Under the pieces are notes generated by a model. It made no database searches and was not told the origin of the DNA. It was given only the letters and a program-made list of their open reading frames with translations. Shown here in pieces: positions 1,401 through 64,000 of a stretch of 64,000 bases of DNA (positions within the stretch are counted from its first letter, which is position 1; every line of letters begins with the position of its first letter). Made by a program: the position numbers and the translations under genes. The DNA is from Pseudooceanicola nanhaiensis DSM 18065 (GTDB lineage Bacteria; Pseudomonadota; Alphaproteobacteria; Rhodobacterales; Rhodobacteraceae). Where the stretch lies: contig NZ_JHZF01000016.1 of the NCBI RefSeq assembly GCF_000688295.1, forward strand, positions 120,414 through 184,413, read 5' to 3'.

Positions 1401-1466
1401 CCGGGGCCGGTGCGCGGCGCTCGCTCCCTCCGGGAGCCTCGCCCCGCCCGCCGTCCCGTGGCGCCT

Positions 1467-2306
1467 TCAGGCGGTGGCGGTGACGATGTTGATCGTGGCG
1501 GGGATCCGCAGGCCGTCCGGGCCGACGTAGGGGCCGAGAGCCGCGCGCAGGGTGTCGAGGATCGCGGCGCGGTCCGTGTCGGTGCCGTCCATCGCGCGCA
1601 TCATGCCGGGGATCGGGCCGATCCCGGCGGCGAGCGCGATGGCCTCGTCGAGATCCGCGAGGGGGAGGGTGGTGTCCTCTGGTGTCACCGAGACGCCTGT
1701 CCAGCCGGCGGCCCCGAGGATGCGGCGCACGCGGGCCGGGTCGCGGAAGGCGAGCGGGCCTGGGGCGTCGGGATCGCCCTGCGGCGGCGTGCCGAGGCGG
1801 TCCGTGGCGGCGGCGCGGGGCAGGGCGAACCAGGGGTTCCGCGCGGCCTCGGCCCAGGTGGCGCAGGCGAGGCGGCCGCCGGGGCGGAGGGCGGCACGGA
1901 TATTGGCGAAGGCCGTCACGGGATCGTCGAAGAACATCACGCCGAAGCGCGAGAGGCAGAGGTCGAAGGGCGGGGCTTCGGGCCGTTCGGACTGGATGTC
2001 GAGGAGGGCTATTCCGGCGTTCGGGGTGCCGGCGAGCGTCTCGCGGGCACGGGCGGCGAGCGGTTCGGAAATGTCGAGGCCGAGGACGCGGCCCCGGGGC
2101 CCGACGGCGCGGGCCGCGGCGAGGGTGGTCGCGCCCGCGCCGCAGCCGATGTCGAGCACGGCCTCGCCGGGGGCGGGGCGGGCGGCGTCCATCAGGCGTG
2201 CGAGGACATTGGACTGGAGGCGGTCGAGCAGCGCCTGACGGTCGGCCCAGAGCCGCCCCGGGGCGGCGTTCCAGAAGTCGCGTTCGGATTGGTTCGGGGC
2301 GGGCAT
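1467..2306 (-). CDS. Class I SAM-dependent methyltransferase
   Basis: A 279-residue protein with the class I methyltransferase motif I VLDIGCGAGATT at about residues 50-61, an acidic residue ending strand 2 in GLDIS, and the post-motif region LCLSRFGVMFFDDP. These fit a UbiE/small-molecule methyltransferase fold. The substrate cannot be told. The start at 2306 is chosen because a GAGGAG ribosome-binding stretch lies just upstream; the frame stays open a further 33 codons but that part runs through an intergenic repeat (2360-2392). The gene follows the RND pump on the same strand after a 127-bp gap. Confidence 0.8.
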   Translation of the reverse strand: MPAPNQSERDFWNAAPGRLWADRQALLDRLQSNVLARLMDAARPAPGEAVLDIGCGAGATTLAAARAVGPRGRVLGLDISEPLAARARETLAGTPNAGIALLDIQSERPEAPPFDLCLSRFGVMFFDDPVTAFANIRAALRPGGRLACATWAEAARNPWFALPRAAATDRLGTPPQGDPDAPGPLAFRDPARVRRILGAAGWTGVSVTPEDTTLPLADLDEAIALAAGIGPIPGMMRAMDGTDTDRAAILDTLRAALGPYVGPDGLRIPATINIVTATA

Positions 2307-2359
2307 GGCGGTCTCCTCCTCGCGCGGCGCGGCCCGGGCATCGAGCCCGGCCCGCGCCG

Positions 2360-2392
2360 GCCTCCGGCGGGGATATTTATGGCAAGAGGAAG
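2360..2392 (+). repeat. 33-bp dispersed intergenic element, copy 1
   Basis: Sequence identical to the right arm at 24746-24778: it opens GCCTCCGGCGGGG and ends GCAAGAGGAAG. It lies 41 bp beyond the stop codon of the minus-strand RND gene. A GC-rich stretch with the ATCGA loop motif also seen in other copies lies on its GCCTCC side. Confidence 0.8.
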
Positions 2393-2433
2393 CAGGGGAC
2401 GCCACGCCTGTTCCGGGCGCGGCGCCGGGGTTC

Positions 2434-5400
2434 TCACTCGGCGGCCTTCAGCCGGCCCGTGCCCTGGGCGACGATCCGGGCCTCGGGGCCGTCGTCGTCC
2501 CAGATGATCTCGGGCGATCTGACCCGGCGGGCGGCGCGGCGGAGCGCCCAATCCTCGGCGGCGCGGCTGCCGCGGCCGAAGGAGAGGCGGGCGAGCAGGC
2601 GCGCCATCCAGCGGAGGTAGGTGCCGGCCCAGACCCGCAGCGCGAGCATCGAGGGCGTGAAGACCAGCGTCAGCACCGTCGCGATGCCGAGGCCGAAGAC
2701 GACGGCCGTGGCCAGCTGCTTCCACCAGAGCGCGGTCGGGCTGTCGATCGAATAGCCGCCGCCGAAGAAGTCGAGGCTGAGGCCCAGCATCATCGGGGCG
2801 AGGCCCGCCATCGTGGTGATCGTGGTCAGCAGCACCGGGCGGAGCCGGTCTTCGGCGGTGCGGATGATCGCCTCGATCCGGGGCATGTAGCCGGAATATT
2901 CCTGGTAGGTGTCGATCAGCACGATGTTGTTGTTCACCACGATGCCGGCCAGCGCGACGATCCCCGTCCCGGTCATGATGATCGAGAAGGCCTGGTCCAT
3001 CACCAGCATCCCGATCAGCACCCCGGCGGTGGAGAGCACCACCGCCAGCAGCACCAGCACCGAATTGTAGAACGAGTTGAACTGCGCCAGCAGGATGATG
3101 AACATCAGCGCCAGCGCGGCGGAGAAGGCGGTCATCAGGAACTGTTCGGATTCGGCCTGGTTCTCCATGTCGCCGGTCCATTCCCACTCGATCCCCGCGG
3201 GCAGGTCCGCCTCGGTCTCGAGCCAGGTGGAGAGGGTCTCGATCCGTTCGGCCGGGGTCATCGGCGCCTCGTTCCCGCCGGGCCCCTCGACCGTCAGGCC
3301 GGGCGCGACGCCGGCCTTGATGTCGAAGAACCGTTTCTGGCCGATGCGCTTGATCTGGGCGAGCTTCGCGACGGGTTCGCGGGTGATGAAGTTCGACAGC
3401 GGCACGAGGCCGTCCTGCGTGCGCACCTTGAGGCTGTCGAGGGTGGCCAGGACCCGGTCCTGTTCGGGCAGGCGGACGCGGATCTCGACCTCCTCGTCGG
3501 AGCTGTCCACCGACATCGTGTCGAGCAGCAGGCCCCGGGTCACGAGCTGGACCATGGCGCCGACGACGGCCACGTTCGCGCCGTAGCGGCCGGCCTTCTC
3601 GACATCGACGTCGATCTGCCAATCGATGCCGGGCAGGGGCAGCGTGTCCTCGACCAGGGTCAGGCCGCGGGTCTCGTCGAACTTCGCGCGGACCTTCTGG
3701 GTGGCGGCGATCAGCTCGTCCCAGTTGTCGCCCTTCACCCGCAGGTGCAGCGGCTTGGCCGAGGCCGGGCCCATGGCGGCGTTCAGGATCTCGACCTTGA
3801 TGCCGGGGATCGTCTCGAGACGCTCGGTGAGCTCGGCCAGGACGACGTCGCCGTCGAGCTCGGAGCGGTCCTTGCGGTCCTCCCACGGCACGATCTCGAG
3901 CTGGATCTGGCCCACGGTGTCGAGCGGCGGTTGCGCGCCGCCGGTGTTGGTGTCGAGCCCGCCCTCGCCGGCAAAGGCGAAGGCCGAAAGGACGCCGGGA
4001 TGGTCGAGCACCATCGCCTCGGCCTGCTGCACCAGCGCGTCCTTCTGGGCGAGCGAGAGGTTGCCGCGGGCGCGGACATAGACGATGGCCTGTTCGGGCT
4101 CGCTCTCGGTGAAGAATTCGACGCCCTTGCTGTTGGCCCCGTAGGTGGTGAAGGTCATCACCACGAAGGCGACGACGGCCGCGATGGTCACCAGCGGCAT
4201 CACCGGGTTGGCGGTGAGCGCCTTGATGAACCAGCCGAAGGGGGTCCGGCGGTGGCCCGCACGGATCCGGGACCGGCGCCAGTGGAGCTTGGCCGACCCG
4301 AGCGTGATCGAGGCGAAGGCGCAGGCGGCGAGGAAGAGCACGAGGCCGGGCAGGTGCGCGAGCGGGCCCTGCGAGATCTCGTCGGTGCCGGTCAGGTAGC
4401 CCGGGTTGATCGAGAGCATCGCGCCGAGGAACATCGCGTAGATCGCCACCGGCACGAGCGCGGCGCGGACGAGCCAGGGCAGGCGGCGCTGCATCCAGGC
4501 CGAGGCCCGGCCGAAGGCGCGCGAGATCCGGCCCGAGACGCCGCCGACGACCGGCAGGTAGATCATCACGACGATCAGCGAGGCGCAGAGCACGAAGATC
4601 AGCGTCACGGGGAGCATCCCCATGAACTCGCCCACGACGCCGGGCCAGAAGAGCATCGGCAGGAAGGCGCAGAGCGTGGTCGCGGTGGACGAGATCACCG
4701 GCCAGAACATCCGCTTGGCGGCCTCGACATAGGCGTGCATCGGGCCGGTGCCCGCGGCGATGCGGGTGTCGGCGTATTCGGTGACGACGATCGCGCCGTC
4801 GACCAGCATGCCGACGGCGAGGATCAGGCCGAACATGACGATGTTCGAGATCGTGATGCCCATGATCCCGAGCAGGACGAAGCAGAGCAGGAAGGAGGTC
4901 GGGATCGCGAAGCCGACAAGCAGGGCGGGGCGCGGCCCGAGGGCGGCCAGCACGACGATCATCACCAGCGCGATGGCGGTCAGGACCGAGCCTTCGAGCT
5001 GCTGGACCATGGAGCCCACCACCCGGCTCTGGTCGTTGGACGTGCCGACGTTGACGGCGGATCGCAGCTCCTCGGGCCAGTCGGCGGAGGCGTCGCGGAC
5101 GACCTGCTTCACCTCGTTCACGGTATCGATCAGGTTGTAGCCCTTGCGCTTGACGACCTGCAGCGCGACCGTCGGTTCCCCGTCGAACCGGGCGGTGCCC
5201 TTGCGGTCCTCGAAGGTCAGGCGGATGTCGGCCAGCTCGCCCAGAGTGACGGTGCGGTCGCCGTTGCGCTTCACCGGCAGCGCATAGATGTCGCGGGGTT
5301 CGTCGAAGCTTCCGGGGATCTTGACCGAGAAGGTGCCGCCCTCGCTCTCGATCTCGCCCGCGGCGATGAGCTGGTTGTTGTTGGTCACGACCGAGATCAG

Positions 5401-6003
5401 CTCGTCCGCGGTGACGTTGTAGGATTCCAGCCGCAGCGGGTCGATGATGACCTCGACCATCTCCTCGCGGTTGCCGGCGATCCCGGCCTCGAGCACCGCG
5501 TCGAGCGCCTCGACCTTTTCCTGCAGCGCCTTGGCGACGTTCGTCATCGTGCGTTCCGGCACCTTGCCGGTCAGGTTCACGATGATGATCGGGAATTCGG
5601 AGAAGTTGATCTCGTTGACCGAGTACTTGTCGAAGCCGGCCGGGAACTTCGACTCCGCCGTCGACATGGCGTCGCGCACGTCGGCCATGGTCTTGGTCTT
5701 GTCCCAGCCGAACTCGAATTCCAGCGCGACCCCGGCATAGCCCTCGGCGGCGGTGGAGGTCATCTTGTCGAGCCCGTCGAGATCGGCGAGCTCGGTCTCC
5801 ATCGGCTTGACCAGCAGCGTCTCGGCATCCTCGGCCGAGATGCCGGGGAAGGGGACCGAGATGAAGAGCGCCGGGATCTCGATGTCGGGCTCGCCCTCCT
5901 TGGGCAGGTTCACATACGAATAGGCTCCCGCGGCGAGCGAGAGCACGATGAAGGCCAGGATCATGCGGGCGCGCGAAGCGGCCCAGTCGACGATTCCGGT
6001 CAT
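2434..6003 (-). CDS. RND-family efflux pump, inner-membrane permease
   Basis: A 1189-residue AcrB-type transporter that would expel compounds across the inner membrane using proton motive force, together with the adaptor encoded just upstream and an outer-membrane channel not seen here. It has the expected layout: TM1 near residues 13-33, a large periplasmic loop, a TM4 region containing GMLVDGAIVV near residue 400, a second loop, and a TM10 region with VVNNNIVLID near 1023. In AcrB the equivalent sites are the pair D407-D408 and K940; here only the first Asp is kept and the Lys position is Asn, so the proton relay is not canonical. The start overlaps the adaptor stop by 4 bp (ATGA), so the two are co-transcribed. 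Confidence 0.92.
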   Translation of the reverse strand: MTGIVDWAASRARMILAFIVLSLAAGAYSYVNLPKEGEPDIEIPALFISVPFPGISAEDAETLLVKPMETELADLDGLDKMTSTAAEGYAGVALEFEFGWDKTKTMADVRDAMSTAESKFPAGFDKYSVNEINFSEFPIIIVNLTGKVPERTMTNVAKALQEKVEALDAVLEAGIAGNREEMVEVIIDPLRLESYNVTADELISVVTNNNQLIAAGEIESEGGTFSVKIPGSFDEPRDIYALPVKRNGDRTVTLGELADIRLTFEDRKGTARFDGEPTVALQVVKRKGYNLIDTVNEVKQVVRDASADWPEELRSAVNVGTSNDQSRVVGSMVQQLEGSVLTAIALVMIVVLAALGPRPALLVGFAIPTSFLLCFVLLGIMGITISNIVMFGLILAVGMLVDGAIVVTEYADTRIAAGTGPMHAYVEAAKRMFWPVISSTATTLCAFLPMLFWPGVVGEFMGMLPVTLIFVLCASLIVVMIYLPVVGGVSGRISRAFGRASAWMQRRLPWLVRAALVPVAIYAMFLGAMLSINPGYLTGTDEISQGPLAHLPGLVLFLAACAFASITLGSAKLHWRRSRIRAGHRRTPFGWFIKALTANPVMPLVTIAAVVAFVVMTFTTYGANSKGVEFFTESEPEQAIVYVRARGNLSLAQKDALVQQAEAMVLDHPGVLSAFAFAGEGGLDTNTGGAQPPLDTVGQIQLEIVPWEDRKDRSELDGDVVLAELTERLETIPGIKVEILNAAMGPASAKPLHLRVKGDNWDELIAATQKVRAKFDETRGLTLVEDTLPLPGIDWQIDVDVEKAGRYGANVAVVGAMVQLVTRGLLLDTMSVDSSDEEVEIRVRLPEQDRVLATLDSLKVRTQDGLVPLSNFITREPVAKLAQIKRIGQKRFFDIKAGVAPGLTVEGPGGNEAPMTPAERIETLSTWLETEADLPAGIEWEWTGDMENQAESEQFLMTAFSAALALMFIILLAQFNSFYNSVLVLLAVVLSTAGVLIGMLVMDQAFSIIMTGTGIVALAGIVVNNNIVLIDTYQEYSGYMPRIEAIIRTAEDRLRPVLLTTITTMAGLAPMMLGLSLDFFGGGYSIDSPTALWWKQLATAVVFGLGIATVLTLVFTPSMLALRVWAGTYLRWMARLLARLSFGRGSRAAEDWALRRAARRVRSPEIIWDDDGPEARIVAQGTGRLKAAE

Positions 6004-7307
6004 TGGGTCGGCTCCTGATAGGTCGGTGCCACGGGGACGCCGGTGACCACGTATTCCTGTCCGATGATGATGACGTCGGCCTGGTCGGGCAGGCCGGTCA
6101 GCCAGATGCCCTGCGCGGTGTCGCGCATCACGTCGACGGGAACGAATTCCGCCATGTTCTCCGCGCCCACGATGCGCACGCCGAGCGTGCCGTCGTCGTC
6201 GAGCGTCAGGGCCGATTGCGGCAGCAGGTGCGCCTTGGCGCCCGCGGCCTCGATCCCGATCTCGACCGTCTGGCCGTCGCGGATCGAGAGGTCGCCGTTC
6301 GGGACCGTGATCTCGACCCGGAAGGTGCGGGTCTGCGGATCGGCCGAACGGGAGAGGAAGGTGACCTCGCCGATGACCTCGCGGCCGCCCGCCGCAAGCC
6401 GCGCGCCGGCGCGGGCGCCGGGCGTCACGCGGTCGACCTCGGTCTCGGGGATGTAGCCCACGAGCTTGATCGGATCGAGCTGGATGACCGTGGCGCAGAG
6501 GCCGCCGGTCTGCAGCAGCGAGCCGATCTCGGCGGTATCCGATTCCAGGAGCCCCCCGAAGGGCGCCTCCATCGTCAGCCGGTCGATCTCGCGCTCGGCC
6601 GATGCCACGCCGGCCTCGGCGGCCTGGATCGCGGAGGTCACGGTCGAAAGCCCGGATTCGGCCGAGGCCAGTCCGGCCTCTGCAGAGCGCACCGCCGCGG
6701 TGGCCGAGGCGACGCGGGTCTCGGAGGCATAGCCGCCCTCGGACAGCTTCTGCGCGGCGTTCAGGTTGATGCGCGCTTCATCCAGCCCGGCCTTCGCCTC
6801 TTCGACGCGGGCCTTCGAGGTCGGAACCGAGGCGCGCGCCTCGGACAGCCGCGCCTGCGCCTCGGAGAGAGAGGCCTCACGGGTGCCGGGGTCGAGCTCG
6901 CAGAGCACGTCGCCCGCGGCGACCTCGGAGCCCTTGCGGCGCGGGTCCGAGACCACCCGGCCGGAGGTCTCGGCCCGGACCTCGACCTGGCGTGCGGCCT
7001 CGGTCTGGCCGCGCAGCACGACGGCGCCGTCGATCTCGCGTGCGGCAGAGCGGATCGCCACCACGCCCACGGGCTTCTGCGTCTCCGCGGCCGCCTCCGG
7101 GGTCTCGGTTTCCGCGGGCGCCGCGGCGGCGTCCTGCGTGGCGGGCTGTTCGGTTTCCGCGGGCGGCGGCGTGCTGCCCTCGGCGATCTCGACCGCTTCC
7201 TCGAAGCTCGCCCCGTTTGCGAAGGCCACCAGCGCGTCGCGGTAGAGGATTGCAACCGCAAGGGCCGCTGCGACCACGATGGCCGTAAGGACAGGGAGCA
7301 GGCGCAT
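6000..7307 (-). CDS. RND efflux periplasmic adaptor subunit (membrane fusion protein)
   Basis: A 435-residue HlyD/AcrA-type adaptor linking the RND permease to an outer-membrane channel. Residues 1-30 form one N-terminal membrane anchor; there is no lipobox Cys. A low-complexity Ala/Glu/Pro/Thr linker follows to about residue 75, then a lipoyl-like half domain (QVEVRAETSGRV), an Ala/Glu-rich coiled-coil hairpin with repeated heptads (AEAGLASAESGLS and similar), the second lipoyl half (APFGGLLES) and beta-barrel segments. It is first in a two-gene operon with the permease, overlapping it by 4 bp. The intergenic region upstream carries repeated short motifs and is shared with a divergent plus-strand gene. 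Confidence 0.9.
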   Translation of the reverse strand: MRLLPVLTAIVVAAALAVAILYRDALVAFANGASFEEAVEIAEGSTPPPAETEQPATQDAAAAPAETETPEAAAETQKPVGVVAIRSAAREIDGAVVLRGQTEAARQVEVRAETSGRVVSDPRRKGSEVAAGDVLCELDPGTREASLSEAQARLSEARASVPTSKARVEEAKAGLDEARINLNAAQKLSEGGYASETRVASATAAVRSAEAGLASAESGLSTVTSAIQAAEAGVASAEREIDRLTMEAPFGGLLESDTAEIGSLLQTGGLCATVIQLDPIKLVGYIPETEVDRVTPGARAGARLAAGGREVIGEVTFLSRSADPQTRTFRVEITVPNGDLSIRDGQTVEIGIEAAGAKAHLLPQSALTLDDDGTLGVRIVGAENMAEFVPVDVMRDTAQGIWLTGLPDQADVIIIGQEYVVTGVPVAPTYQEPTQ

Positions 7308-7396
7308 GTGCTAATCCGGAGTTATCGAGGAGCCAGGACGTATTACGGCCCGAAATATGAGGTGGATGACGCGGCGCAAGGCCGGGCCGGGGCATT

Positions 7397-7421
7397 TCTA
7401 AACCATTCTGTTCAGATTAGA
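7397..7421. promoter_or_regulatory. Possible operator in the divergent RND adaptor / yfgM-like intergenic region
   Basis: Within the 228-bp region between the two divergent genes, TCTAA (7397-7401) and TTAGA (7417-7421) form an imperfect dyad. CATTTCT is repeated directly at 7393 and 7422, and CGCAAGGCCG occurs at 7375 and again near 7438. Repeated short sites between divergent genes are compatible with a repressor-controlled efflux promoter. No regulator gene is adjacent. Confidence 0.25.
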
Positions 7422-7535
7422 CATTTCTGCAACGCCGCGCAAGGCCGTGCGCATCGGGCGGGCGCCCTCTGGGCAGGTATTGGCAGGGCCGGGTCAACAG
7501 GTTAAGAGAGGCCCGAAATCAGGGGAGAACGCCGC

Positions 7536-8216
7536 GTGAGCCAGTCTGACAGCTTCATCGAGGAAGTCACCGAGGAAGTCCGCCGCGACCGCCTGTTCGC
7601 GACCATGAAGCGGTTCGGCTGGATCGCCATCGTCCTCGTGCTGCTCATCGTCGGTGGTGCGGCCTACAACGAATACCGCAAGTCGCAGGAGCGCGCCTCG
7701 GCCGAGGCGCTCGGCGATGCGCTGCTCAACGCTCTGGATCAGGACAGCGCCGAGGAACGCGTCGCGGCGCTGAACGCGGTCGAGACCGACAGCGCCGGGC
7801 AGGAGGCCGTCGTGGCGCTGCTGGAGGCTTCGGAAGCGGCCAGCGCGGGCGATCCCGCCAAGGCGTCCGACCGTCTGATGGCGGTCGCAGAGCGCGAGGA
7901 CCTGCCGCGCATCTACCGCGACCTCGCCCGGTTCAAGGCGCTCGGCATGAACGCCGCCGCGATGGAGCCCGCCGAGCTTCGCGCCGGCTACGAGGCGCTC
8001 GCCGCCCCCGGCGCGCCCCTGCGGCTGCTCGCGCTGGAGCAGGTTGCGCTGACCTACGTGGCGGAAGGCGACACGGAACAGGCGGTCGAGGTGCTCGAGT
8101 CCGTGCGCAGCGACGCCGAGGTGACCTCGGGCTTGCGTCAGCGCGTGTCTCAGTTGATGGTGGCGCTCGGCGAGGACCCGGCGGCCGAGGATACGGCCGA
8201 ACCGGTCAATGACTAA
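7536..8216 (+). CDS. YfgM-like tetratricopeptide inner-membrane protein
   Basis: A 226-residue protein with a short cytoplasmic N-terminus, one membrane span at about residues 28-44 (rich in Ile/Val/Leu) and an Ala-rich helical periplasmic domain made of TPR-like hairpins. This is the architecture of YfgM, an ancillary SecYEG translocon subunit that hands proteins to periplasmic chaperones. The position immediately before bamB and der matches the yfgM-bamB-der order known from E. coli, which is the strongest support. It ends in a short acidic tail and overlaps or abuts the bamB start. Confidence 0.8.
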   Translation: MSQSDSFIEEVTEEVRRDRLFATMKRFGWIAIVLVLLIVGGAAYNEYRKSQERASAEALGDALLNALDQDSAEERVAALNAVETDSAGQEAVVALLEASEAASAGDPAKASDRLMAVAEREDLPRIYRDLARFKALGMNAAAMEPAELRAGYEALAAPGAPLRLLALEQVALTYVAEGDTEQAVEVLESVRSDAEVTSGLRQRVSQLMVALGEDPAAEDTAEPVND

Positions 8217-8232
8217 AGAGGGGCCGCGATAC

Positions 8233-9597
8233 ATGGCTGAGGCAGGGGTACTTTCGCGCGCGCCGCTTGGCGCGCACCTGCGGTTCGGGCTCAGGGCGGG
8301 GCTCGTGGGCTCGCTGATCCTGCTCGCCGGCTGCGGCGAGAACGAGGTTCTGCTGCCCGGCAAGCGGGAAGATCCCCGCGCCGTCCTGCAGACCGAGGGC
8401 CCGGACGAGGCGCAGGCGCCGAACCGTGCCGTCCCGATCCGCCTGCCGGCACCCTCCGTGAACGCCGCGTGGCTGCAGGGGCCGGGCACGCCCGCGACGC
8501 GCAACACGCACCCCGCGCTCTCGGCCGCACCGCAGCTGATCTGGTCCGCGCCGATCGGGGCCGGTGACGGGCGCCGCCAGCGCATCACCGCCGATCCGGT
8601 GGTCTCGGGCGGCCGCATCTACGCGATGGATTCCGAAAGCCAGGTCACCGCGACCTCGACCGGGGGCCAGACGCTCTGGTCCCGCAGCCTCGTGCCGGCG
8701 CGCGACGGGGCGACCGACGCGGTCGGCGGCGGGCTGGCGCTCGGCGGCGGCAAGCTCTTCGCGACCTCGGGCTTCGGTGAACTGACCGCGATGGATGCCG
8801 CGACCGGCGCGATCCTCTGGCAGCAGAAGCTCGACTCGGTCGGCAACGGCGCGCCGACCTACATGAACGGCGTGGTCTACCTCGTCGGCGGGGACGGCAC
8901 CGGCTGGGCGGTGGACGCGGGCAACGGCCGCATCCGCTGGCAGCTTGCCTCGGCGCCCACGATCAACGCGCTGGTCGGCGGTTCGGCCCCGGCGGTCACC
9001 GACACCTTCGTCATCTTCCCCTATGCCTCGGGCGAGATCACCGCGGCCTTCCGCGAGGGCGGCCTGCGCCGCTGGGACAACGTCGTCGCGGGCCGCCGCC
9101 CCGGCGTCGCCCGCGCCAACGTCAACGCCGTCTCGGGCGATCCGGTCGTGGTCGGCGACACGGTCTACGCGGGCACCCTGTCGGGGCGGCTCGCCGCGAT
9201 CGGGCTCGGCAACGGCGAACCCGCATGGACCGCCGGAGAGGGCCCGCTCTCGCCGGTGACCGTGATCGGCGGCTCGGTCTTCCTGATCTCGGACCGCAAC
9301 GAGCTCGTGCGCCTCGACGCCGCGACCGGCGAGCGGATCTGGGGCACGGAACTGCCCTTCTTCACCCGCGCGCGGCCCCGCAAGCAGGCCGAGATCTTCG
9401 GTCACTACGGGCCGGTCGTCGCGGGCGGACGGGTGATCGTCGCCTCGAACGACGGCCAGCTGCGGTTCTTCGATCCGACCAACGGCGCGCTGGTCCGCAG
9501 CATCGAGATCCCCGGCGGCGCGACCTCCGATCCGGTGGTCGCGGGCGGCACGCTCTATGTGGTATCGGCCGACGGCAAGCTGCTGGCCTATCGCTGA
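8233..9597 (+). CDS. bamB: BamB-like outer-membrane assembly lipoprotein, PQQ-type beta-propeller
   Basis: A 454-residue protein with a lipoprotein signal peptide (lipobox LLAGC, Cys at residue 34), followed by about 65 linker residues and a run of PQQ/WD-like propeller blades, each with the G..YALD/AIDAATG..W pattern (for example AMDAATGAILW and RLDAATGERIW). BamB helps the BAM complex insert beta-barrel proteins. I chose the ATG at 8233 because AAAGAGG lies upstream; another ATG at 8209 overlaps the previous stop but has no ribosome-binding site. Adjacent der completes the usual neighbourhood. Confidence 0.88.
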   Translation: MAEAGVLSRAPLGAHLRFGLRAGLVGSLILLAGCGENEVLLPGKREDPRAVLQTEGPDEAQAPNRAVPIRLPAPSVNAAWLQGPGTPATRNTHPALSAAPQLIWSAPIGAGDGRRQRITADPVVSGGRIYAMDSESQVTATSTGGQTLWSRSLVPARDGATDAVGGGLALGGGKLFATSGFGELTAMDAATGAILWQQKLDSVGNGAPTYMNGVVYLVGGDGTGWAVDAGNGRIRWQLASAPTINALVGGSAPAVTDTFVIFPYASGEITAAFREGGLRRWDNVVAGRRPGVARANVNAVSGDPVVVGDTVYAGTLSGRLAAIGLGNGEPAWTAGEGPLSPVTVIGGSVFLISDRNELVRLDAATGERIWGTELPFFTRARPRKQAEIFGHYGPVVAGGRVIVASNDGQLRFFDPTNGALVRSIEIPGGATSDPVVAGGTLYVVSADGKLLAYR

Positions 9598-9659
9598 GCG
9601 CTTTCCGCGGCCGGGCGAATGGTGTATCGGGGCGCTTCGGCAGAAGCGGAGTCTGAGCC

Positions 9660-11165
9660 ATGTCCTTCACCCTCGCCATCGTTGGCCGTCCCAACGTCGG
9701 CAAATCGACGCTCTTCAACCGGCTGGTCGGGAAGAAGCTGGCGCTGGTCGACGACCAGCCCGGCGTGACCCGCGACCTGCGCGAGGGCGAGGCCCGGCTG
9801 GGTGACCTGAAGTTCACCGTGATCGACACCGCGGGGCTCGAGGAGGCCACGGACGAGAGCCTGCAGGGCCGGATGCGCAAGCTGACCGAGCGGGCGGTGG
9901 ACATGGCCGACGTCTGCCTCTTCCTGATCGACGCCCGTGCCGGGGTGACCCCCACGGACGAGGTCTTCGCCGAGATCCTCCGCAAGCGCGCCCCCCGCGT
10001 GGTGCTCGGGGCCAACAAGGGCGAGGGGTCCGCGGCCGATGCGGGCGTGCTCGAGGCCTACGGTCTGGGTCTCGGCGAGCCGGTGCGCCTGTCGGCCGAA
10101 CATGGCGAGGGCATGGCCGATCTCTACGCCGCGCTGATGCCGATCGCCGACGGCTTCGCCGAGAAAGCCGCCGCGGCCGAGGAAGAGGCCCCCCGCACCG
10201 ACATCACCGTCGAGGAGGACGAGGCCGAAGAGCTCTCCGCCGAGGCGGCCCGCGAGGCGGAGGAAGCCTGGCGCCCCTCCGCGCGGCGCCCCCTGCAGGT
10301 CGCCGTGGTGGGCCGTCCGAACGCGGGCAAGTCGACGCTGATCAACCGGATCATCGGCGAGGACCGCCTGCTGACCGGTCCCGAGGCCGGGATCACCCGC
10401 GATTCCATCTCGCTCCCGATCGACTGGGAGGGCGTGCCGATGCGGATCTTCGACACCGCGGGCATGCGCAAGAAGGCCAAGGTGCAGGAGAAGCTCGAGA
10501 AGCTCTCGGTCTCCGACGGCCTCCGCGCGGTGAAATTCGCCGAGGTGGTCGTCGTCCTGCTCGACGCCGCCATCCCCTTCGAACAGCAGGACCTCCGCAT
10601 CGCCGACCTCGCCGAACGCGAGGGCCGCGCCGTGGTGGTGGCCGTGAACAAATGGGACCTCGAGGAGGATCGCCAGGCCAAGCTCGCCGGCCTGAAGGAG
10701 GCGTTCGACCGCCTGCTCCCGCAGCTGCGCGGCGCGCCCCTCGTCACCGTCTCCGCCAAGACCGGGCGCGGCCTCGACCGGCTGCACAAGGCCATCGTCA
10801 AGGCGCACGAGACCTGGAACCGCCGGGTCACCACCGGGCAGCTCAACCGCTGGCTGACGGGGATGCTGGAACAGCACCCGCCGCCCGCGCCGCAGGGCCG
10901 CCGCATCAAGCTTCGCTACATGACCCAGGCCAAGACCCGGCCGCCGGGCTTCGTGGTGATGTGCTCGCATCCCGACAAGATGCCCGCCAGCTACACACGC
11001 TACCTGGTGAACGGCCTGCGCGACACGTTCGACATGCCCGGCACGCCGATCCGCCTGACGCTGCGCGGGCAGGGCGCCGCCAACCCCTACAAGGGCAGGA
11101 AGAAATCGACCCCCTCGCGCCTGCGCAAGCACCTCGGCAAGCCGGCGCACGGGTCCCGCGGCTGA
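9660..11165 (+). CDS. der: Ribosome biogenesis GTPase Der (EngA)
   Basis: A 501-residue protein with two tandem GTPase domains and a C-terminal KH-like domain, as is diagnostic for Der. The first P-loop GRPNVGKST is at residues 9-17 with DTAGLEE as G3; the second, GRPNAGKST, is near residue 218 with DTAGMRKK, and NKWD serves as G4. The inter-domain linker is rich in Glu/Ala. It acts in 50S subunit maturation and is essential in bacteria studied. It is preceded by bamB after a 62-bp gap and followed by a repeat element and fdsR. Confidence 0.97.
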
Positions 11166-49988: not shown

Positions 49989-50021
49989 GCCTCCGGCGGG
50001 GATATTTTCGGCAAGAGGAAG
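49989..50021 (+). repeat. 33-bp dispersed element, copy 8
   Basis: GCCTCCGGCGGGGATATTTT to AAGAGGAAG, 65 bp before hisD. Immediately upstream is a hairpin with perfect arms GCGATCCGGCC and GGCCGGATCGC (about 49960-49985). Confidence 0.85.
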
Positions 50022-56786: not shown

Positions 56787-56861
56787 GCCCGGGTAGCTCA
56801 GGGGTAGAGCAGTGGATTGAAAATCCTCGTGTCGGTGGTTCGATTCCGCCCCCGGGCACCA
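56787..56861 (+). tRNA. tRNA-Phe (GAA)
   Basis: A 75-base tRNA: acceptor stem GCCCGGG with CCCGGGC, discriminator A and encoded CCA at 56859-56861. The D arm is GCTCAGGGGTAGAGC; the anticodon loop TTGAAAA flanked by GGA/TCC gives anticodon GAA; the T arm is GGTGG-TTCGATT-CCGCC. It is the boundary between core sequence and the AT-richer island, and its 3' half is a typical integrase target. Confidence 0.97.
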
Positions 56862-57679: not shown

Positions 57680-58732
57680 GTGCCCACGATTTTTCTCGAC
57701 ACAAACGTTTTTATAGATGCTCAATACTTCAGGCCGGCTGGCGCTCAAGCATTCCTAAGGACATGTAAATTCGCAGGTTTTGATATCGCCGTGCCTGAAG
57801 TGGTCCTTGATGAAGTGCGAGGAAAATATCAGCAGGGACTTTCTGCGGCATTGGTCTCGCTAACTAAGGCAGAGCGACAGGTTGCTCGGTTTGTAACTCT
57901 TGAGAGTTCCGAAATTTCGTTTGATGAAGAGATAGATAGTTTCAATGCATTCGTTGAGGAGTTATTGGAGGACGTAGGGGTGGACGTCCTGCCTTATCCT
58001 GACATAGCGACAAAAGACTTAGTTATTGGCGGCTATTCCAACAAAAAACCCTATAAGGAAAATGGCGAAGGGCATAAGGATTATCTGATATGGAAATCTA
58101 TAGTGGAACGAGTAGATCCAGCCGACGGACCGCATGTTTTCGTTACGAGCAACACGTCAGACTTTGCCCATGAGAAGACGAAAGAAACATTTGTTCTCCA
58201 TCCAGAACTGAAGTCGGATCTACCTGATGAGGTATCTGTTCTGGGCTTTACAGGTCGACAGTCTCTTCTTGAGAGACATGTTCTGCCACGTCTCGATGGA
58301 TGGAAGCCTTGGACTGATTCAAGGGTCGATATTGACGTCGAAAATTTTGCCGAAAGAGTGATTGGAAAAGAGCTACCATATAAAACTATGTATGGGCTGG
58401 AGGGTCTTCCATTCAGCAATGATGTTACTATTACGATGTATGGGAATCCAGCAAACCTGGACGTGCATTATGCCCTCATTGGAGATCAATACATGGTGCG
58501 CATACGGGGTGAGTCTGAATGCCTTTTTGACGGATACATGGATAAGTGGGAGTATTTCTCAGAGCATTCTGAGACCATGGCGGGGAGCGATTGGAATGAT
58601 CATGTTGTAAGCGTAGAAACTGTGGCGGTAGTAGAATTCGAGGTAATGGCTACCTACGACCCCGCGAATGGAGAGTTAGGTGGCGCCACCCTGAAGGTGC
58701 TTAACGAGATCGAGGATGACATCTACCAATAG
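57680..58732 (+). CDS. PIN-domain protein of DUF4935 type
   Basis: A 350-residue protein with an N-terminal PIN nuclease domain of about 200 residues. Acidic active-site residues are visible: Asp7 (IFLDTNVFIDAQ), Glu45 (VPEVVLDEVRGK), Asp134 (GHKDYLIWKSI) and Asp161 (VFVTSNTSDF). The insertion and order match the DUF4935 group, likely RNA- or tRNA-cleaving. The C-terminal 140 residues are a separate beta-rich domain that I do not recognise. GTG start. Clearly AT-richer than the core genes, so acquired. No antitoxin gene is adjacent, which argues against a simple VapC-type pair. Confidence 0.8.
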   Translation: MPTIFLDTNVFIDAQYFRPAGAQAFLRTCKFAGFDIAVPEVVLDEVRGKYQQGLSAALVSLTKAERQVARFVTLESSEISFDEEIDSFNAFVEELLEDVGVDVLPYPDIATKDLVIGGYSNKKPYKENGEGHKDYLIWKSIVERVDPADGPHVFVTSNTSDFAHEKTKETFVLHPELKSDLPDEVSVLGFTGRQSLLERHVLPRLDGWKPWTDSRVDIDVENFAERVIGKELPYKTMYGLEGLPFSNDVTITMYGNPANLDVHYALIGDQYMVRIRGESECLFDGYMDKWEYFSEHSETMAGSDWNDHVVSVETVAVVEFEVMATYDPANGELGGATLKVLNEIEDDIYQ

Positions 58733-59152
58733 AAGCTTCTTTCGCATGAGGTTTTTTATTCCTTCACATCGGCTTCGGGTTACGGCCATGATACGGAAGG
58801 GACGAAATTGCACCGCTCAAACCGGTCAAGAGCCGTTTCCCGAAAAGTCATTCTCTAAGGTTGCGCAATCGGCAGAGATGGCCGCATAGCGGAACTACGG
58901 CTGTGTCTACTTGCTGCAAGGTGGAGTGAAGGGCGGCTGTTGCCTGGAACCTGTCGTCTCCCGCGCCAGGCTGGAATGGCTGCACAGGGCTGTCGTTTCT
59001 GGGCAACCCCTGCTCACCTGGGCGTGCAGTATGCCGCGGCGCGGCAGGACCGCCCCGAGCCATACTACCTCGCAAGTCATTCCGGCTTTGACCTGTCCCT
59101 CTTCCTCCTCGAAATCCAGAGCGGTATCATGTGCCCATACCGGAGAATGCGA
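58733..59152. other. 420-bp gap without a gene
   Basis: Between the PIN gene and the zinc-ribbon gene. An in-frame extension of the following gene back to 58940 is possible but reads as random sequence rich in Arg, Cys and Pro. A T-rich run (TTTTTTATT, about 58750) just after the PIN stop could end transcription. Nothing else recognised. Confidence 0.4.
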
Positions 59153-60103
59153 ATGCTGGAATTTACAGACAAAGAAAAGCAAGAAGTCACCGACTACTTT
59201 CTCGGGCAGTCACCGGAAGGCACAGAAGTCAGGTTCGCACAAAAGGTCTACGCCGAGTCTGTTATCGGGCATACACATTCGGTCTGGGACATACACGCGA
59301 GCGATAGCCGGTGGTGGGTAATTACGAACCCGACGAACCTCTACTCGCAGGAGCAGTTCCCGAACCTGGATCTTGCTATTACGTTTCATATGGGTCTCTG
59401 CCTGCGCATACCTCGCAACAACCTGAAGCAGGTGGACGTCGAGAGCGTGCGACCATTCACAGATGTCCTGAACGCTATCAGGGAGTGCGAGACTGCGCTT
59501 GCGCAGGCAAATGACCAGGGGGCGTTTCGAGCAATCGGGGTCCGGTGCCGTGAGAACCTTCTGGGGTTTGTGCACGCTGCACAGGATGCATACGACTGGC
59601 CCGAACAGGATCTTCCCCAACGCTCGAATTTCAAGTCGTGGGTGGAAATGATTTTTGACACCTTTCTTAGTGGGTCAGACAACCGGGAACGTCGGCGTCT
59701 AATCAAGACAACGCTAAAAGAGACGTGGGACTATGCGAACTGGCTGACACATTCCCAGTCTGGGAAGTGGATGGACGCCGAAGTCGCTACTAATGCCGTA
59801 TCTCACGCCATTAGCATGGCAGCGTCAATCTGTGTCCGGCACCTGCGCGGTGTCCCGGACCAATGCCCGGCCTGTGATTCCCACCGCTTGTCTCCCGAAG
59901 AGGGCTTAGACCCGAAGAACCCTGAGGTGATCTTTGAGAGGCCTGTGTGTTCGGAGTGCGGTTGGGCGGGTGATGCCGTGCCGGTTGGTGAACGAACTGA
60001 AGACGAGGTCGCCCAGTTCATTACGCGCGAAGGCGAGACCTCTGATGAGTGCGGCGTGATGCAGACACCGCTTATGGAGGTTCTCGGCAAACGACCGAAG
60101 TAG
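59153..60103 (+). CDS. Unknown protein with C-terminal zinc ribbon
   Basis: A 316-residue soluble protein with no family I can name. The first 110 residues are mixed alpha/beta (WWVITNPTNLYSQEQFPNLD), then a helical region (RCRENLLGFVHAAQDAYDW and DYANWLTHSQSGKW, MDAEVATNAVSHAISMAAS) that resembles the long helices of HEPN-type proteins though the R-x4-6-H signature is not obvious. A zinc ribbon closes it: CPAC and CSEC, 42 residues apart. ATG at 59153 follows GGAGA. Longer start at 58940 rejected. Defence function is only suggested by the neighbourhood. Confidence 0.65.
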   Translation: MLEFTDKEKQEVTDYFLGQSPEGTEVRFAQKVYAESVIGHTHSVWDIHASDSRWWVITNPTNLYSQEQFPNLDLAITFHMGLCLRIPRNNLKQVDVESVRPFTDVLNAIRECETALAQANDQGAFRAIGVRCRENLLGFVHAAQDAYDWPEQDLPQRSNFKSWVEMIFDTFLSGSDNRERRRLIKTTLKETWDYANWLTHSQSGKWMDAEVATNAVSHAISMAASICVRHLRGVPDQCPACDSHRLSPEEGLDPKNPEVIFERPVCSECGWAGDAVPVGERTEDEVAQFITREGETSDECGVMQTPLMEVLGKRPK

Positions 60104-60538: not shown

Positions 60539-61054
60539 TTAGCAGAAAAGCGACTTTGTCCACTCCCATGTAACTTCCCAGGGAAGCTCTATCGCAAACT
60601 GCACCAAGTGAACAAAAATGAATACAAACGGGACGAGCACTTCGATCTTGTGGAACGGCGTGTGGCGGCTGCCATCCACCCCCGTTAGGAATTGCCACTC
60701 GTCGCTATAAGCCGACACCGGCAGTTGTTGCTCGAGTTTGGTGATGACCGCGAATTTGGCGGAATTGAGAGATTTGTAACTCAGGACTGCACGTATCCAG
60801 AGAATGCAGATGGCGATACCGGCCAGCGATATAGCCCAAGTGTTCGCTTCCTCTGCCTCACGAGCGACGTAGGCGGTAGCGCCGATGATCGCGGTATTTA
60901 CAGTTAGATAGAATGAATTTGCAGATTGCCGACGCTGACTTACACGATCTGCCATTTCCACAAGTAATTTATAGATTTCAAGAATGTCTTCGGTCGAATC
61001 GCGACTTTTCCTATCTTTCTCCACGTTTAATAGTTCCCGTTTCCGAGGTTCCAC
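60539..61054 (-). CDS. Small multi-spanning membrane protein, RipA-like
   Basis: A 171-residue protein with three hydrophobic segments (residues 48-64, 72-92 and 137-157). The stretch YKLLVEMADRVSQRRQSANS, followed by FYLTVNTAIIG, is what I recall from the RipA family of small octameric membrane proteins. Translation starts with GTG inside the end of the TIR-like gene (28-bp overlap); a second GTG at 61024, two bases after that gene's stop, is possible. Co-translation with a TIR-like protein suggests a sensor/effector pair in which this would be the membrane effector. Function is inference. Confidence 0.65.
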   Translation of the reverse strand: MEPRKRELLNVEKDRKSRDSTEDILEIYKLLVEMADRVSQRRQSANSFYLTVNTAIIGATAYVAREAEEANTWAISLAGIAICILWIRAVLSYKSLNSAKFAVITKLEQQLPVSAYSDEWQFLTGVDGSRHTPFHKIEVLVPFVFIFVHLVQFAIELPWEVTWEWTKSLFC

Positions 61055-61449
61055 ACGCCGTCGATAACCGATTGCTTATTCCAGCCAACGGCCCGCGTCG
61101 AAGCAGACATAACAGTTGAGGAAGCACGCTTTTGCGCCCAGGGATCGACCGCTAAGATCGGCTTGTGATAGAGAGCAGACCCGTCGATTTCCTTTCGAAT
61201 CCACTTACTGTGGTTTGAATACATACCTGTTGGAATTACTACAACGTCACTCTTGGCAATGCGCTCATAGATTGCTGTTTGAAGGGCTTTGTCGGAAGGT
61301 GCGAAGTGAATAGGGTTATCTTTTGGGACAGAGGTGTTGAAGAAGTTCAATCGAACCCCATTGATGGACCAATATTCCTCAAAGATCCATTCTGCCAGTT
61401 TGTCGTAGTGATTCGAATACGTCCAAGAGTGACTGATGAAGACGTTCAT
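61027..61449 (-). CDS. TIR-like (MTH538/DUF1863-type) domain protein
   Basis: A 140-residue single-domain protein. It begins MNVFISHSWTYSNHYDKLAE, the TIR-like start, and has IAKSDVVVIPTGMYSNHS and WIRKEIDGS, where Glu87 after Trp83 occupies the catalytic Glu position of NAD-consuming TIR domains. It may therefore make a nucleotide signal or degrade NAD. GAGGAAATA precedes the ATG. The 3' end overlaps the RipA-like gene. The arrangement resembles Thoeris-like logic, but the partner is different. Confidence 0.8.
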   Translation of the reverse strand: MNVFISHSWTYSNHYDKLAEWIFEEYWSINGVRLNFFNTSVPKDNPIHFAPSDKALQTAIYERIAKSDVVVIPTGMYSNHSKWIRKEIDGSALYHKPILAVDPWAQKRASSTVMSASTRAVGWNKQSVIDGVWNLGNGNY

Positions 61450-61776: not shown

Positions 61777-62328
61777 TCAATCTGCGTAATAGTTACGACT
61801 AACCTGCGAATACCATTTCAAAAAAACTTCTTTGATCTCGCCTCGCTGCGACTGCGTGGGATTGTCAGGTGGAGTTTCATGAACAAACACCTCGGTCGTG
61901 CCAACATCAAAAACCCCGCCAAAAACATCTCTTTCTCGAAAAATGAGTAAAGGAAGGCGTAGCCCGAACAATATTCCAGCTTTCAACTGATTCCATGGAG
62001 TGGGAAACGAAACACTGCCCGACCTCGAAACCTTTATCTCCTCCGCAGTTCCACGCTTCCAAATCCCTGAGGTAGCAACGAACTGCTCGTATCCGAGAAT
62101 AACGCCGCCGTGGCAATGTCGAGCGATGGCGTAGACTTCTTTTAGGGGCACATCTTTTGGATAATCTGAGCGCCCGAGTGCCCGAGGCTCCAGTTGTAGC
62201 TCGTTGAGGATTTCCAGCACGACGCCCCGTGACTTCTCCTGCTGATCATTTAGCTTCGTTGGGCTTGAAACAAATACCGGAATTCGCATTTTTCCCCCGA
62301 TGGCACCTTCCGCCTGATCATTACCCAT
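61777..62328 (-). CDS. Unknown protein with deoxyribosyltransferase/TIR-like fold features
   Basis: A 183-residue protein (from the Met at 62328). It opens MRIPVFVSSPTKLNDQQEKS after a short leader, then LEPRALGRSDYPKDVPLKEV and CHGGVILGYEQF: a beta-strand, an SPT loop and helix, as in nucleoside deoxyribosyltransferase, SLOG and TIR-like sensors. Conserved RSDYP and ARHCHGG could form a nucleotide site. Family not named. The frame is open to 62565, where an Arg/Lys-rich leader could also be coding, or translation could begin at 62289. Located between the HEPN-motif gene and the TIR-like gene on the same strand. Confidence 0.55.
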   Translation of the reverse strand: MGNDQAEGAIGGKMRIPVFVSSPTKLNDQQEKSRGVVLEILNELQLEPRALGRSDYPKDVPLKEVYAIARHCHGGVILGYEQFVATSGIWKRGTAEEIKVSRSGSVSFPTPWNQLKAGILFGLRLPLLIFRERDVFGGVFDVGTTEVFVHETPPDNPTQSQRGEIKEVFLKWYSQVSRNYYAD

Positions 62329-62641
62329 AACCTGCTGCTTCAGCAACTGACGTCGCTGTCGCGCTAAACGTCGAGCACGTTCCTTTGATTCATCGATGTC
62401 GAATGCCCACTTCGTGGGAACCACGGGGATGGGCCTTTGGGACGTAGCTGCACTGTGCCGCGAAAGACCGGTTTGGAGAGGCCGCGCCGCAGCGAGCACC
62501 ATCCTTGCGGATGTCGGCATTGGGCCGGTCGCGCCGCCCAGGAAGTGAGGGCGGATTCCAGACATTCTCTGCGGCGAAAAAAAATTCTGCCGTTGGGAAG
62601 AGGATCAGACGTTAAGAACTGAGGGCGGTTGTGATGCGCTT

Positions 62642-63676
62642 TCAGCGGCCCAGCCCGTCACCATCCATCCGAGATTGCTCATCAGGAACGTATGTTCGCA
62701 GCTCGCTCCCCGTAATTCCGAACGCATCTGCAACTTTTTGTATCAACTGTTCGGCTTGTTTTGTCAGTGGAGCTGAGCGATCTACACCGAGCCTGTTATA
62801 GCAATCATTCACATCCGAACTGGACAAGTGCGCATCCGCACCCCGCAAATCATAGGCCCCAAATAATGGGCTCATTCGCCTGTATGCGTAGTCCTCATCC
62901 GTATACTTTGCCAACAATCTTTGCAGAAGCTTGAGTGTGCCTTGATCTGACTTACCCTCTCCCAGTGCTTCTATCAGGCTCTTTTTATTGATCCTCTCGA
63001 TTGAAATCTTTACCAAGTCCTTCGCGAGGGACCGCAAACCGCTTTCATCGGTTGCACGGAACCTGTGAATTCTTGAAGACAGCTCCTCCACTTCATGGTG
63101 GTCTCTGAAAAGAGCAATATCAAACTTTTCTTGGAACACTTGACCGATCCAGCCGAGGGCATGGTGGATTAGGAACTCAGGAGACTTGGTCGCGGCGGGT
63201 TCGCAAGCCATTTGCGCCTCCATGAGCTCAGAGGAGACTCCTCCATCTGGCCGACAATTGTGCGCCCCCCAAATTCTCCGTTCCCAAAGCGGTCGGTGTG
63301 CGACGTCATATGCGTAGGCATTGACAAGGCCCAGTTTGTTGACACCGAAGTGTAGCAACCAATCGGGTGATGGGGAAACACCGCCCGTATCGTGCGTATA
63401 CCAAGTAATCGTTGCACCCCGGCGCGACAGAAGATCATTTATCACTTCCGGTTTGAACCAAAGGTATTTCCCTACTTCCTCGTAGTTGAGTGTCTTCAGA
63501 TCAACTCTTCCTCCACCGCCGTCGAGTTGGACCATGATCGCCTCATCCGGCTCTCCGTAACCGATCCGCCATGACTTTTCGGCGGCCTCAATCCACTCGC
63601 CGCGCCACATCTCGCCTGTTACAAGGAAGCGTCCTCCCTCATCGCCGCGAACCCCCTTTGTGGTTTCCGTCTTGGT
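62642..63676 (-). pseudogene. HEPN-motif protein, 5' end lost to an IS5 insertion
   Basis: About 345 codons remain. The C-terminal third has GAYDLRGADAHLSSSDVND, with R-x4-H as in the active site of HEPN ribonucleases, in a helical context (LQRLLAKYTDEDYAYRRMSP). The upstream part is a mixed domain with FLIHHALGWIGQVFQ that I do not recognise. The frame runs without a stop into the IS5 end at 63677, where the first Met (63691) is IS-derived, so the original N-terminus is missing. It might still be made from the Met at 63610. Resembles ApeA/abortive-infection type HEPN proteins, but that is inference. Confidence 0.55.
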
Positions 63677-64000
63677 GGCTCTGTTGCACAAATCGGCTGA
63701 ACGCCGAGGTTCCCCTTTCCCCGGACAGACTTATCCCACAGCTTCCGTGACGGGTATGCCGAGCGCGGTGTAGCCGTTCAGGACAGCGATGCGGACCTGG
63801 AGCTCGGCGACCTGTCGGTCGAAGTCTCGCGCCATGAGCCGCTGGCCCAGCAGTTTCACACAATGCATCTTGGTCTCGACGCGGCTCCTGCGGTGGTATC
63901 CGCTCCATCGTCGCCAGAGGGCCCGGCCGAGGTATTTCGCGGCGCGCAGGGCCTCGTTTCGTGCGGCCGCGCCAGCTGTGATCACCTTCCACGGCTTGGC
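63677..64000 (-). mobile_element. IS5-family insertion sequence (partial, runs off the window)
   Basis: The outer end begins GGCTCTGTTGCACAAATCGG on the plus strand, a typical IS5-group terminus. The other end and the target duplication are outside the window. It interrupts the HEPN-motif gene. Confidence 0.8.
63731..64000 (-). CDS. IS5-family transposase, C-terminal part
   Basis: Ninety codons read as the C-terminal end of an IS5-family DDE transposase: basic GYHRRSRVETKMHCVKLLGQ, with the catalytic Glu in RVETK, then RLMARDFDRQVAELQVRIAV and NGYTALGIPV. The frame stays open to the window edge, so the N-terminal two thirds and start are missing. Stop TAA at 63731. Confidence 0.85.
   Translation of the reverse strand, partial: AKPWKVITAGAAARNEALRAAKYLGRALWRRWSGYHRRSRVETKMHCVKLLGQRLMARDFDRQVAELQVRIAVLNGYTALGIPVTEAVG

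Follow-up and report, generated by a model that had tools for sequence, protein, structure and literature searches.

The question raised by this locus is whether two small adjacent genes, one encoding a TIR-like protein and the other a membrane protein, constitute a defence unit in which the first protein makes a signal and the second responds to it. Both genes are located towards the end of the window, that is, the whole stretch of 64,000 nucleotides from Pseudooceanicola nanhaiensis DSM 18065 that was analysed (Table 1). Two articles describe the TIR proteins of Thoeris systems as producers of NAD-derived signals, by which an effector encoded alongside is activated (PMC12847820, PMC11204291). 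In these articles, the effector of type II is the TM-macro protein ThsA and its signal is His-ADPR (PMC12847820, PMC11204291), the type IV effector is a caspase-like protease and its signal is N7-cADPR (PMC12847820), and a type VI is named in a further article (PMC13232231).

Regarding the first gene, the original prediction of a TIR-like protein of 140 residues carrying W83 and E87 was confirmed, since the open reading frame and both residues are present as described and Pfam assigned the protein to ThsB_TIR with 57.5 bits against a cut-off of 21.2. In a fold search with this protein, the best matches were TIR/ThsB structures together with deoxyribosyltransferases. In the solved TIR/ThsB chains 8fz9 and 9b7d, the residue aligned with Glu87 is the Glu of the W-x-x-x-E motif, and Glu87 was present in all the TIRs compared, namely that of the window and those of 107 loci. 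Judging from this alignment, a placement of E87 outside the predicted pocket, which had been named as a possible objection, appears disfavoured. The equivalent residue is the one that we take to be catalytic in ThsB. The genome of the window (G000) holds one 8xMP match and two ThsB_TIR matches, the second of which (G000:C14:1246-1536, locus L002) scores higher, with 84.7 bits.

The partner had been described as RipA-like and devoid of a visible nucleotide-binding domain, and Pfam agreed with this description, giving 8xMP (PF24838) as its sole family, with 132.7 bits against a curated cut-off of 30, and no known nucleotide-binding, macro, SIR2, SLOG or protease domain. The Pfam scores of both members of the pair are above chance. 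In the dedicated databases, only weak matches at most were obtained: the TIR protein reached 13.2 bits with ThcB4 in NCBIfam 2026 (cut-off 220), and in PADLOC 2023 at most 21.6 bits with the ThsB models and 20.8 bits with the candidate PDC-M50B, while the 8xMP protein had no match in NCBIfam 2026 and at most 14.6 bits in PADLOC 2023. The check proposed with the original prediction yielded the two Pfam families, and in PADLOC 2023 no single system was strongly matched by both proteins.

Some relatives of the 8xMP protein carry the name RipA family octameric membrane protein, and from the family name it may be supposed that 8xMP forms an octamer. Three membrane segments had been proposed for the partner. 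In its 161-aa form, two of them, at approximately residues 59-83 and 122-150, pass the hydropathy cut-off, but the third, at residues 37-58, lies below it, and is continued as a helix in the AlphaFold2 model. This model (pLDDT 87.6, pTM 0.74) is all helical, with helices at residues 2-56, 59-98, 105-113, 124-146 and 149-160. When 85 sequences were aligned, invariant residues were found at W76, L86, K90, E98, E109 and P132, and K90, E98 and E109 are located in the predicted stem between both clear membrane segments; this stem is a candidate signal-sensing part. No PDB relative of 8xMP was found by sequence, and Foldseek with the 8xMP model gave nothing at E 0.001. The fold relatives from the PDB on the VIA list were helical bundles, at a level to be expected by chance for models of this type, and were rejected. 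Likewise, no SLATT match was obtained for 8xMP at E 0.1 in Pfam or NCBIfam, and an origin of 8xMP from SLATT is unsupported, the hhalign probability between the two being 8-10%, at which relatedness is undetectable.

A 28-bp overlap between the two genes had also been proposed. Both open reading frames, of 140 and 171 aa, do exist where they were placed, but the overlap is contingent on the furthest-upstream GTG, at which the longest form of the second frame (60539-61054, minus strand) begins. The start of the close relatives P0001, P0004 and P0006 corresponds to the position of the GTG at 61024, two bases past the TIR stop, and the comparison of these starts suggests that the extension is probably not part of the protein. 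Among the 28 relatives with 8xMP downstream of the TIR gene, 21 have a possible start between -4 and +7 relative to the TIR stop and five (L067, L082, L089, L103 and L141) have none in the scanned range; in the remaining two, the start lies at -8 or +22 (L068) and at +25 or +55 (L090). As the gene arrangement indicates, the TIR and 8xMP genes belong to the same apparent operon, being on the same strand with a 2-base gap, and coupled translation is plausible with either start choice.

Table 1. Features of the TIR-8xMP locus, in window positions
Feature	Position	Strand	Evidence or comment
Low-GC stretch holding the pair, from tRNA-Phe (56787-56861) to contig end	56862..64000	.	GC profile
8xMP (RipA-family) membrane protein, 161 aa, predicted effector	60539..61024	-	PF24838, 132.7 bits; start codon favoured by homologues
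Predicted membrane segment, 8xMP residues 122-150	60575..60661	-	Hydropathy and AlphaFold2 model
Predicted non-membrane stem, 8xMP residues 84-121	60662..60775	-	Alignment, model, hydropathy; K90, E98, E109 invariant
Predicted membrane segment, 8xMP residues 59-83	60776..60850	-	Hydropathy and AlphaFold2 model
Weakly hydrophobic helical segment, 8xMP residues 37-58; possible third membrane segment	60851..60916	-	Hydropathy and AlphaFold2 model
Upstream extension of second ORF, as far as the most distant GTG, which creates the 28-bp overlap; unlikely to belong to the protein	61025..61054	-	Start positions in relatives
TIR protein, ThsB_TIR family, 140 aa (stop included)	61027..61449	-	Predicted NAD-processing signal maker
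Glu87 codon	61189..61191	-	Matches the motif Glu in solved TIR/ThsB chains; conserved in 108/108 TIRs

The recurrence of the pair was evaluated in genomes of the same class and family. Across 385 genomes of the class, the 8xMP cut-off was exceeded at 28 places in 25 genomes, and a ThsB_TIR match was present in 56 genomes. At seven of these 28 places (G000, G034, G065, G261, G272, G299 and G325, the TIR of G299 being divided over two frames), ThsB_TIR was found directly upstream of 8xMP on the same strand, and the other 21, three of which had no locus fetched, were without an adjacent ThsB_TIR. When the class loci fetched (at most 30 per search) were scored with the profile of the window's TIR subfamily, ten TIRs exceeded 75 bits, and seven of them were the 8xMP-adjacent ones. 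Of the remaining three, L052 adjoins a caspase-like gene (it is on the same contig as L070, where Pfam confirms the caspase-like gene) and, judged by eye, L054 adjoins a SLATT-looking membrane protein and L048 a 424-aa protein similar to the TPR-S partners. For seven 8xMP loci (L009, L010, L012 and L014-L017), no TIR neighbour was present in the stretch fetched, and these perhaps form a branch of the family that serves a different purpose. Two of the 21 places have a TIR-fold neighbour of another sort: in L006/L178 (G252:C4), 8xMP lies directly behind a 360-aa protein of a different TIR kind, with a weak TIR_2 match of 25.5 bits (cut-off 28), and in L020 (1444-2507) 8xMP is followed by a weakly Nuc_deoxyrib_tr-like protein (19.3 bits).

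In the family, 295 genomes were searched; seven matched the TIR query and eight the 8xMP query, with both adjacent in four (G000, G403, G491 and G591), although the pair of G491 contains internal stops. Among the family TIRs without 8xMP, a caspase-like gene accompanies those of G486 and G584, and nothing was recognised beside that of G526. The four 8xMP genes without ThsB_TIR are those of G252, which has the TIR_2 protein upstream, G468, whose unrecognised neighbour is on the opposite strand, G401, with nothing beside it, and G463. In the last case (L182, G463:C12, 338-1845), the frame overlapped by 8xMP encodes 395 aa and matches Nuc_deoxyrib_tr (20.5 bits) and prok_STING (20.3 bits) below threshold; it is possibly an 8xMP partner of a second kind. 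The TIR was not found in the one other genome of the same genus that was searched, and the pair was unmatched in E. coli genomes.

The TIR alignment was then used in a pattern-based scan covering 84,980 species genomes, which gave a wider view of the TIR subfamily: 310 relatives were found and the best 80 analysed, their partner classes being assigned with profiles built from the loci. It was verified that 8xMP lies within 300 bp on the same strand in 38 of these best 80 (28 downstream and 10 upstream), a count that is not a population frequency, since these are the relatives most similar to the window's TIR; the set also overlaps the class sample (G261 is L087, G272 is L121 and G051 is L070). 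Thus, the concern that homologues of the two genes might rarely be adjacent elsewhere was not borne out for this TIR subfamily, though most 8xMP places of the class sample lack a ThsB_TIR. In four of the 38 (L067, L089, L100 and L141), the 8xMP frames are fragments of just 79-112 aa. The 38 loci of the 8xMP type are spread over 10 named phyla, with two loci without phylum.

The partner position of the other 42 relatives is occupied by a caspase-like protein (16), a SLATT protein (14) or a TPR-S protein (3), and is unrecognised in nine, including L076, which has 8xMP on the opposite strand, and L123, which runs into the contig end. For representatives of these classes, Pfam returned Peptidase_C14 (3), SLATT/DUF4231 (3) and TPR-S (2, one of them with Trypsin_2). 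Two partner classes were never adjacent in one locus among the best 80, and they were found anywhere in the whole fetched stretch in only two of 108 loci (L122 and L135). No open reading frame of 169 loci was matched by both the TIR and the 8xMP profiles, as a fusion would be. No third conserved gene emerged either when the flanking proteins 57680, 58940, 61777 and 62642 were compared with the 169 loci by tblastn, which returned the window's own copies and one 29% match; this match, of 61777, is in L133, a caspase-type locus. In L173 (2841-3375; by position also L172, 1-539), a further gene lies behind the caspase, with DUF6338 in L173.

Members of the subfamily were also observed in mobile DNA. 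The 28 TIR loci on viral contigs carry SLATT (12), caspase (7), 8xMP (4) or no recognised partner (4), and one has no open TIR frame. An 8xMP match was present in 32 plasmid records, and at least four of them, from Synechococcus and the haloarchaea Natronosalvus, Natronorubrum and Haladaptatus, have a TIR match at less than 100 bp on the same strand (60 of the 98 TIR records being covered); in others the TIR match is further off or on the opposite strand. In phage records, no 8xMP was found, and the single TIR match lies under a feature annotated as ICE-like protease p20 protein.

As far as gene order indicates, 8xMP occupies the position where effectors sit, and it is called an effector here mainly because caspase, SLATT and TPR-S proteins can take its place beside TIRs of this subfamily. 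Since the subfamily swaps a caspase-like partner for 8xMP, it can be argued that 8xMP, as an effector, responds to a signal of the same kind. On balance, the pair is probably a Thoeris-like two-gene unit with an exchangeable, signal-gated 8xMP membrane effector, a reading held with moderate confidence. Upon infection, the TIR protein would convert NAD+ to a small nucleotide signal, which 8xMP would sense, disturbing the cell membrane, and abortive infection would be the expected outcome; the whole would operate as an anti-phage alarm composed of a TIR signal maker and a membrane responder. A cADPR isomer is the first candidate for the signal, given that the caspase-linked relatives are arranged like type IV Thoeris, for which N7-cADPR is the reported signal.

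The Thoeris-like reading is supported by the domains, the adjacency, the conservation of the Glu, the exchange of partners and the defence-type neighbourhood of the closest relative. Against it stand the lack of a known nucleotide-binding domain in 8xMP, for which no convincing PDB relative was found, and the absence of an adjacent ThsB_TIR from most 8xMP places of the class sample (21 of 28). The original prediction of a TIR producer with a membrane effector is partly supported, in the ThsB-kind TIR, the recurrent pair, the low-GC island with its PIN-domain gene and the weak database matches, while signal production, membrane disruption and phage protection are predicted properties; it is corrected as to the 28-bp overlap and the third membrane segment.

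The exchange of partners also bears on the opposite assignment of roles, in which the TIR protein would be a toxic NADase effector and 8xMP its membrane sensor, anchor or inhibitor, in a sensor-effector or toxin-antitoxin-like pair. This alternative is unlikely, although it survives better than the others considered: TIR proteins can be NAD-depleting effectors, as described in one article (PMC12847820), 8xMP is located upstream of the TIR in 10 of the 38 loci, and the existence of 8xMP genes without a TIR neighbour means that the family is not obviously toxic. However, a subfamily that exchanges 8xMP with caspase, SLATT and TPR-S proteins, and never has two classes adjacent, is what would be predicted for a signal maker with swappable effectors.

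The history of the Thoeris-like pairing was examined in a tree of 79 TIRs, comprising that of the window and 78 of the 80 relatives (two with frames of less than 95 aa were left out), over 148 columns, in which 35 of the 76 inner branches are unresolved. The partner labels change less often along this tree than the mean of shuffled labels (13 against 26.5 for 8xMP, 8 against 14.9 for caspase and 8 against 13.1 for SLATT), and yet the well-supported branches alone force at least four changes for 8xMP, five for caspase and two for SLATT, which suggests that partners are inherited for a time and then exchanged. For instance, the caspase- and 8xMP-linked TIRs of L095 and L093 are sisters, with support of 99/78.

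At position 8 of the TIR (window 61426-61428), the window has Ser, as do 40 of the 43 8xMP-linked TIRs (the other three having gaps) and all 23 caspase-linked ones. Among the 26 SLATT-linked TIRs, Ala is found in 17, Ser in 8 and a gap in one; the 13 unrecognised loci have Ala in 4, Ser in 6 and gaps in 3, and one of the three TPR-S loci has Ala. This residue is possibly a marker of a different signal, and the pattern would fit a common signal for 8xMP and caspase partners, though kinship alone could yield it.

A bolder proposal, which is advanced only tentatively, is that 8xMP represents a novel class of immune membrane effectors, being an octameric channel that opens in response to an ADP-ribose signal from the TIR and is interchangeable with caspase-like proteases through a common signal (N7-cADPR or a close isomer). 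If so, this TIR subfamily would be a common alarm accepting proteases, SLATT pores, TPR-S proteins or 8xMP channels. With the Thoeris-like reading itself, TIR immunity would gain a membrane effector without a known nucleotide-binding domain, and one branch of the RipA/8xMP family would acquire a function. Close TIRs with caspase and with 8xMP partners offer a clean case for deciding whether unrelated effectors share one signal.

In comparison with known systems, the pair has a ThsB-type TIR domain, the motif Glu and a partner gene in the same apparent operon, as Thoeris systems do, but its partner is not an effector of the SIR2-SLOG, TM-macro or caspase-like kind. It shares the ThsB_TIR domain and fold with type I Thoeris (ThsB and SIR2-SLOG ThsA), whereas its partner has no SIR2 or SLOG domain. 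As in type II (PMC11204291, PMC12847820), a TIR is combined with a membrane effector, but here without a macro domain or any Pfam domain besides 8xMP. Type IV is linked by the same TIR subfamily, with a caspase-like gene in the partner position in 16 of the best 80 relatives (three confirmed as Peptidase_C14), and differs in its partner, since a membrane protein lacking a protease domain takes the place of the caspase here. SLATT proteins beside TIRs are similar in that they too are membrane proteins, and they occupy the partner position in 14 of the best 80 relatives in this TIR subfamily, although 8xMP has no SLATT match and an hhalign probability of 8-10%. Finally, the partner belongs with the 8xMP/RipA-family octameric proteins by its 132.7 bits to PF24838, but the RipA papers, by title and abstract start, treat RipA without a TIR partner, unlike the 8xMP paired with a TIR here.

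In the titles and abstract starts listed by the literature searches, the TIR-8xMP pair is undescribed, a scope outside which a 2025 preprint on TIR systems lies, and the papers containing the string 8xMP are seemingly unrelated, by title and abstract start. The pair is therefore provisionally regarded as new as a Thoeris-like variant, provisionally because that 2025 survey of TIR systems may list it.

The genomic context agrees with the mobile island with nuclease-like genes that had been suggested for this region. The GC content of the stretch after tRNA-Phe is approximately 46-58%, against 65-73% in the preceding DNA (from position 50000), and the stretch includes a PIN_12 domain protein at 57680-58732 (73.9 bits), possibly a nuclease, and an IS5-type fragment under the cut-off of its model; the low-GC genes at 58940-60103, 61777-62565 and 62642-63691 match no Pfam family at E 0.1. 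The locus of the closest relative (L062, Roseovarius atlanticus) has defence-type genes around the pair (353-10420), arranged as a PifA-like gene (KAP NTPase, 1.5e-115), an unrecognised 454-aa frame, the pair and, downstream, matches to LmuA (an MBL-type protein, weak, 9.6e-11) and LmuB (2.8e-25).

These surroundings argue against the view that the pair is not defensive at all, 8xMP performing envelope housekeeping, as thought for RipA, and the TIR modulating it. Such a role would suit the 8xMP genes without a TIR neighbour and the relatives named RipA family octameric membrane protein, and the RipA papers, by title and abstract start, treat growth inside host cells and LpxA suppressors. The distribution of the pair is patchy, however, with the TIR in seven of 295 family genomes and absent from the one other genome of the genus, and the low-GC stretch, the PifA and Lamassu-like genes near the closest relative and the occurrence on viral contigs all make housekeeping quite improbable. 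Least probable is a direct membrane complex of TIR and 8xMP acting without a diffusible signal, with the TIR as scaffold, which the tight coupling (a 2-base gap here) and frequent adjacency would allow, but for which the motif Glu kept in 108 of 108 TIRs would be needless and one conserved TIR surface would need to fit partners from different Pfam families.

Around the other 8xMP loci, the flanking proteins (75 proteins from 33 of 35 loci) mix restriction genes with ordinary metabolism. The restriction and methylase matches among them are DNA_methylase (2), GmrSD_N (2), ResIII (2), HaeII (1) and EcoRI methylase (1), counts that cover the first 25 of 94 Pfam families with no control set and imply no enrichment. 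The large-chain domain of ribonucleotide reductase was observed in four of these 75 proteins and the small chain in three, neighbours that possibly reflect an insertion hotspot.
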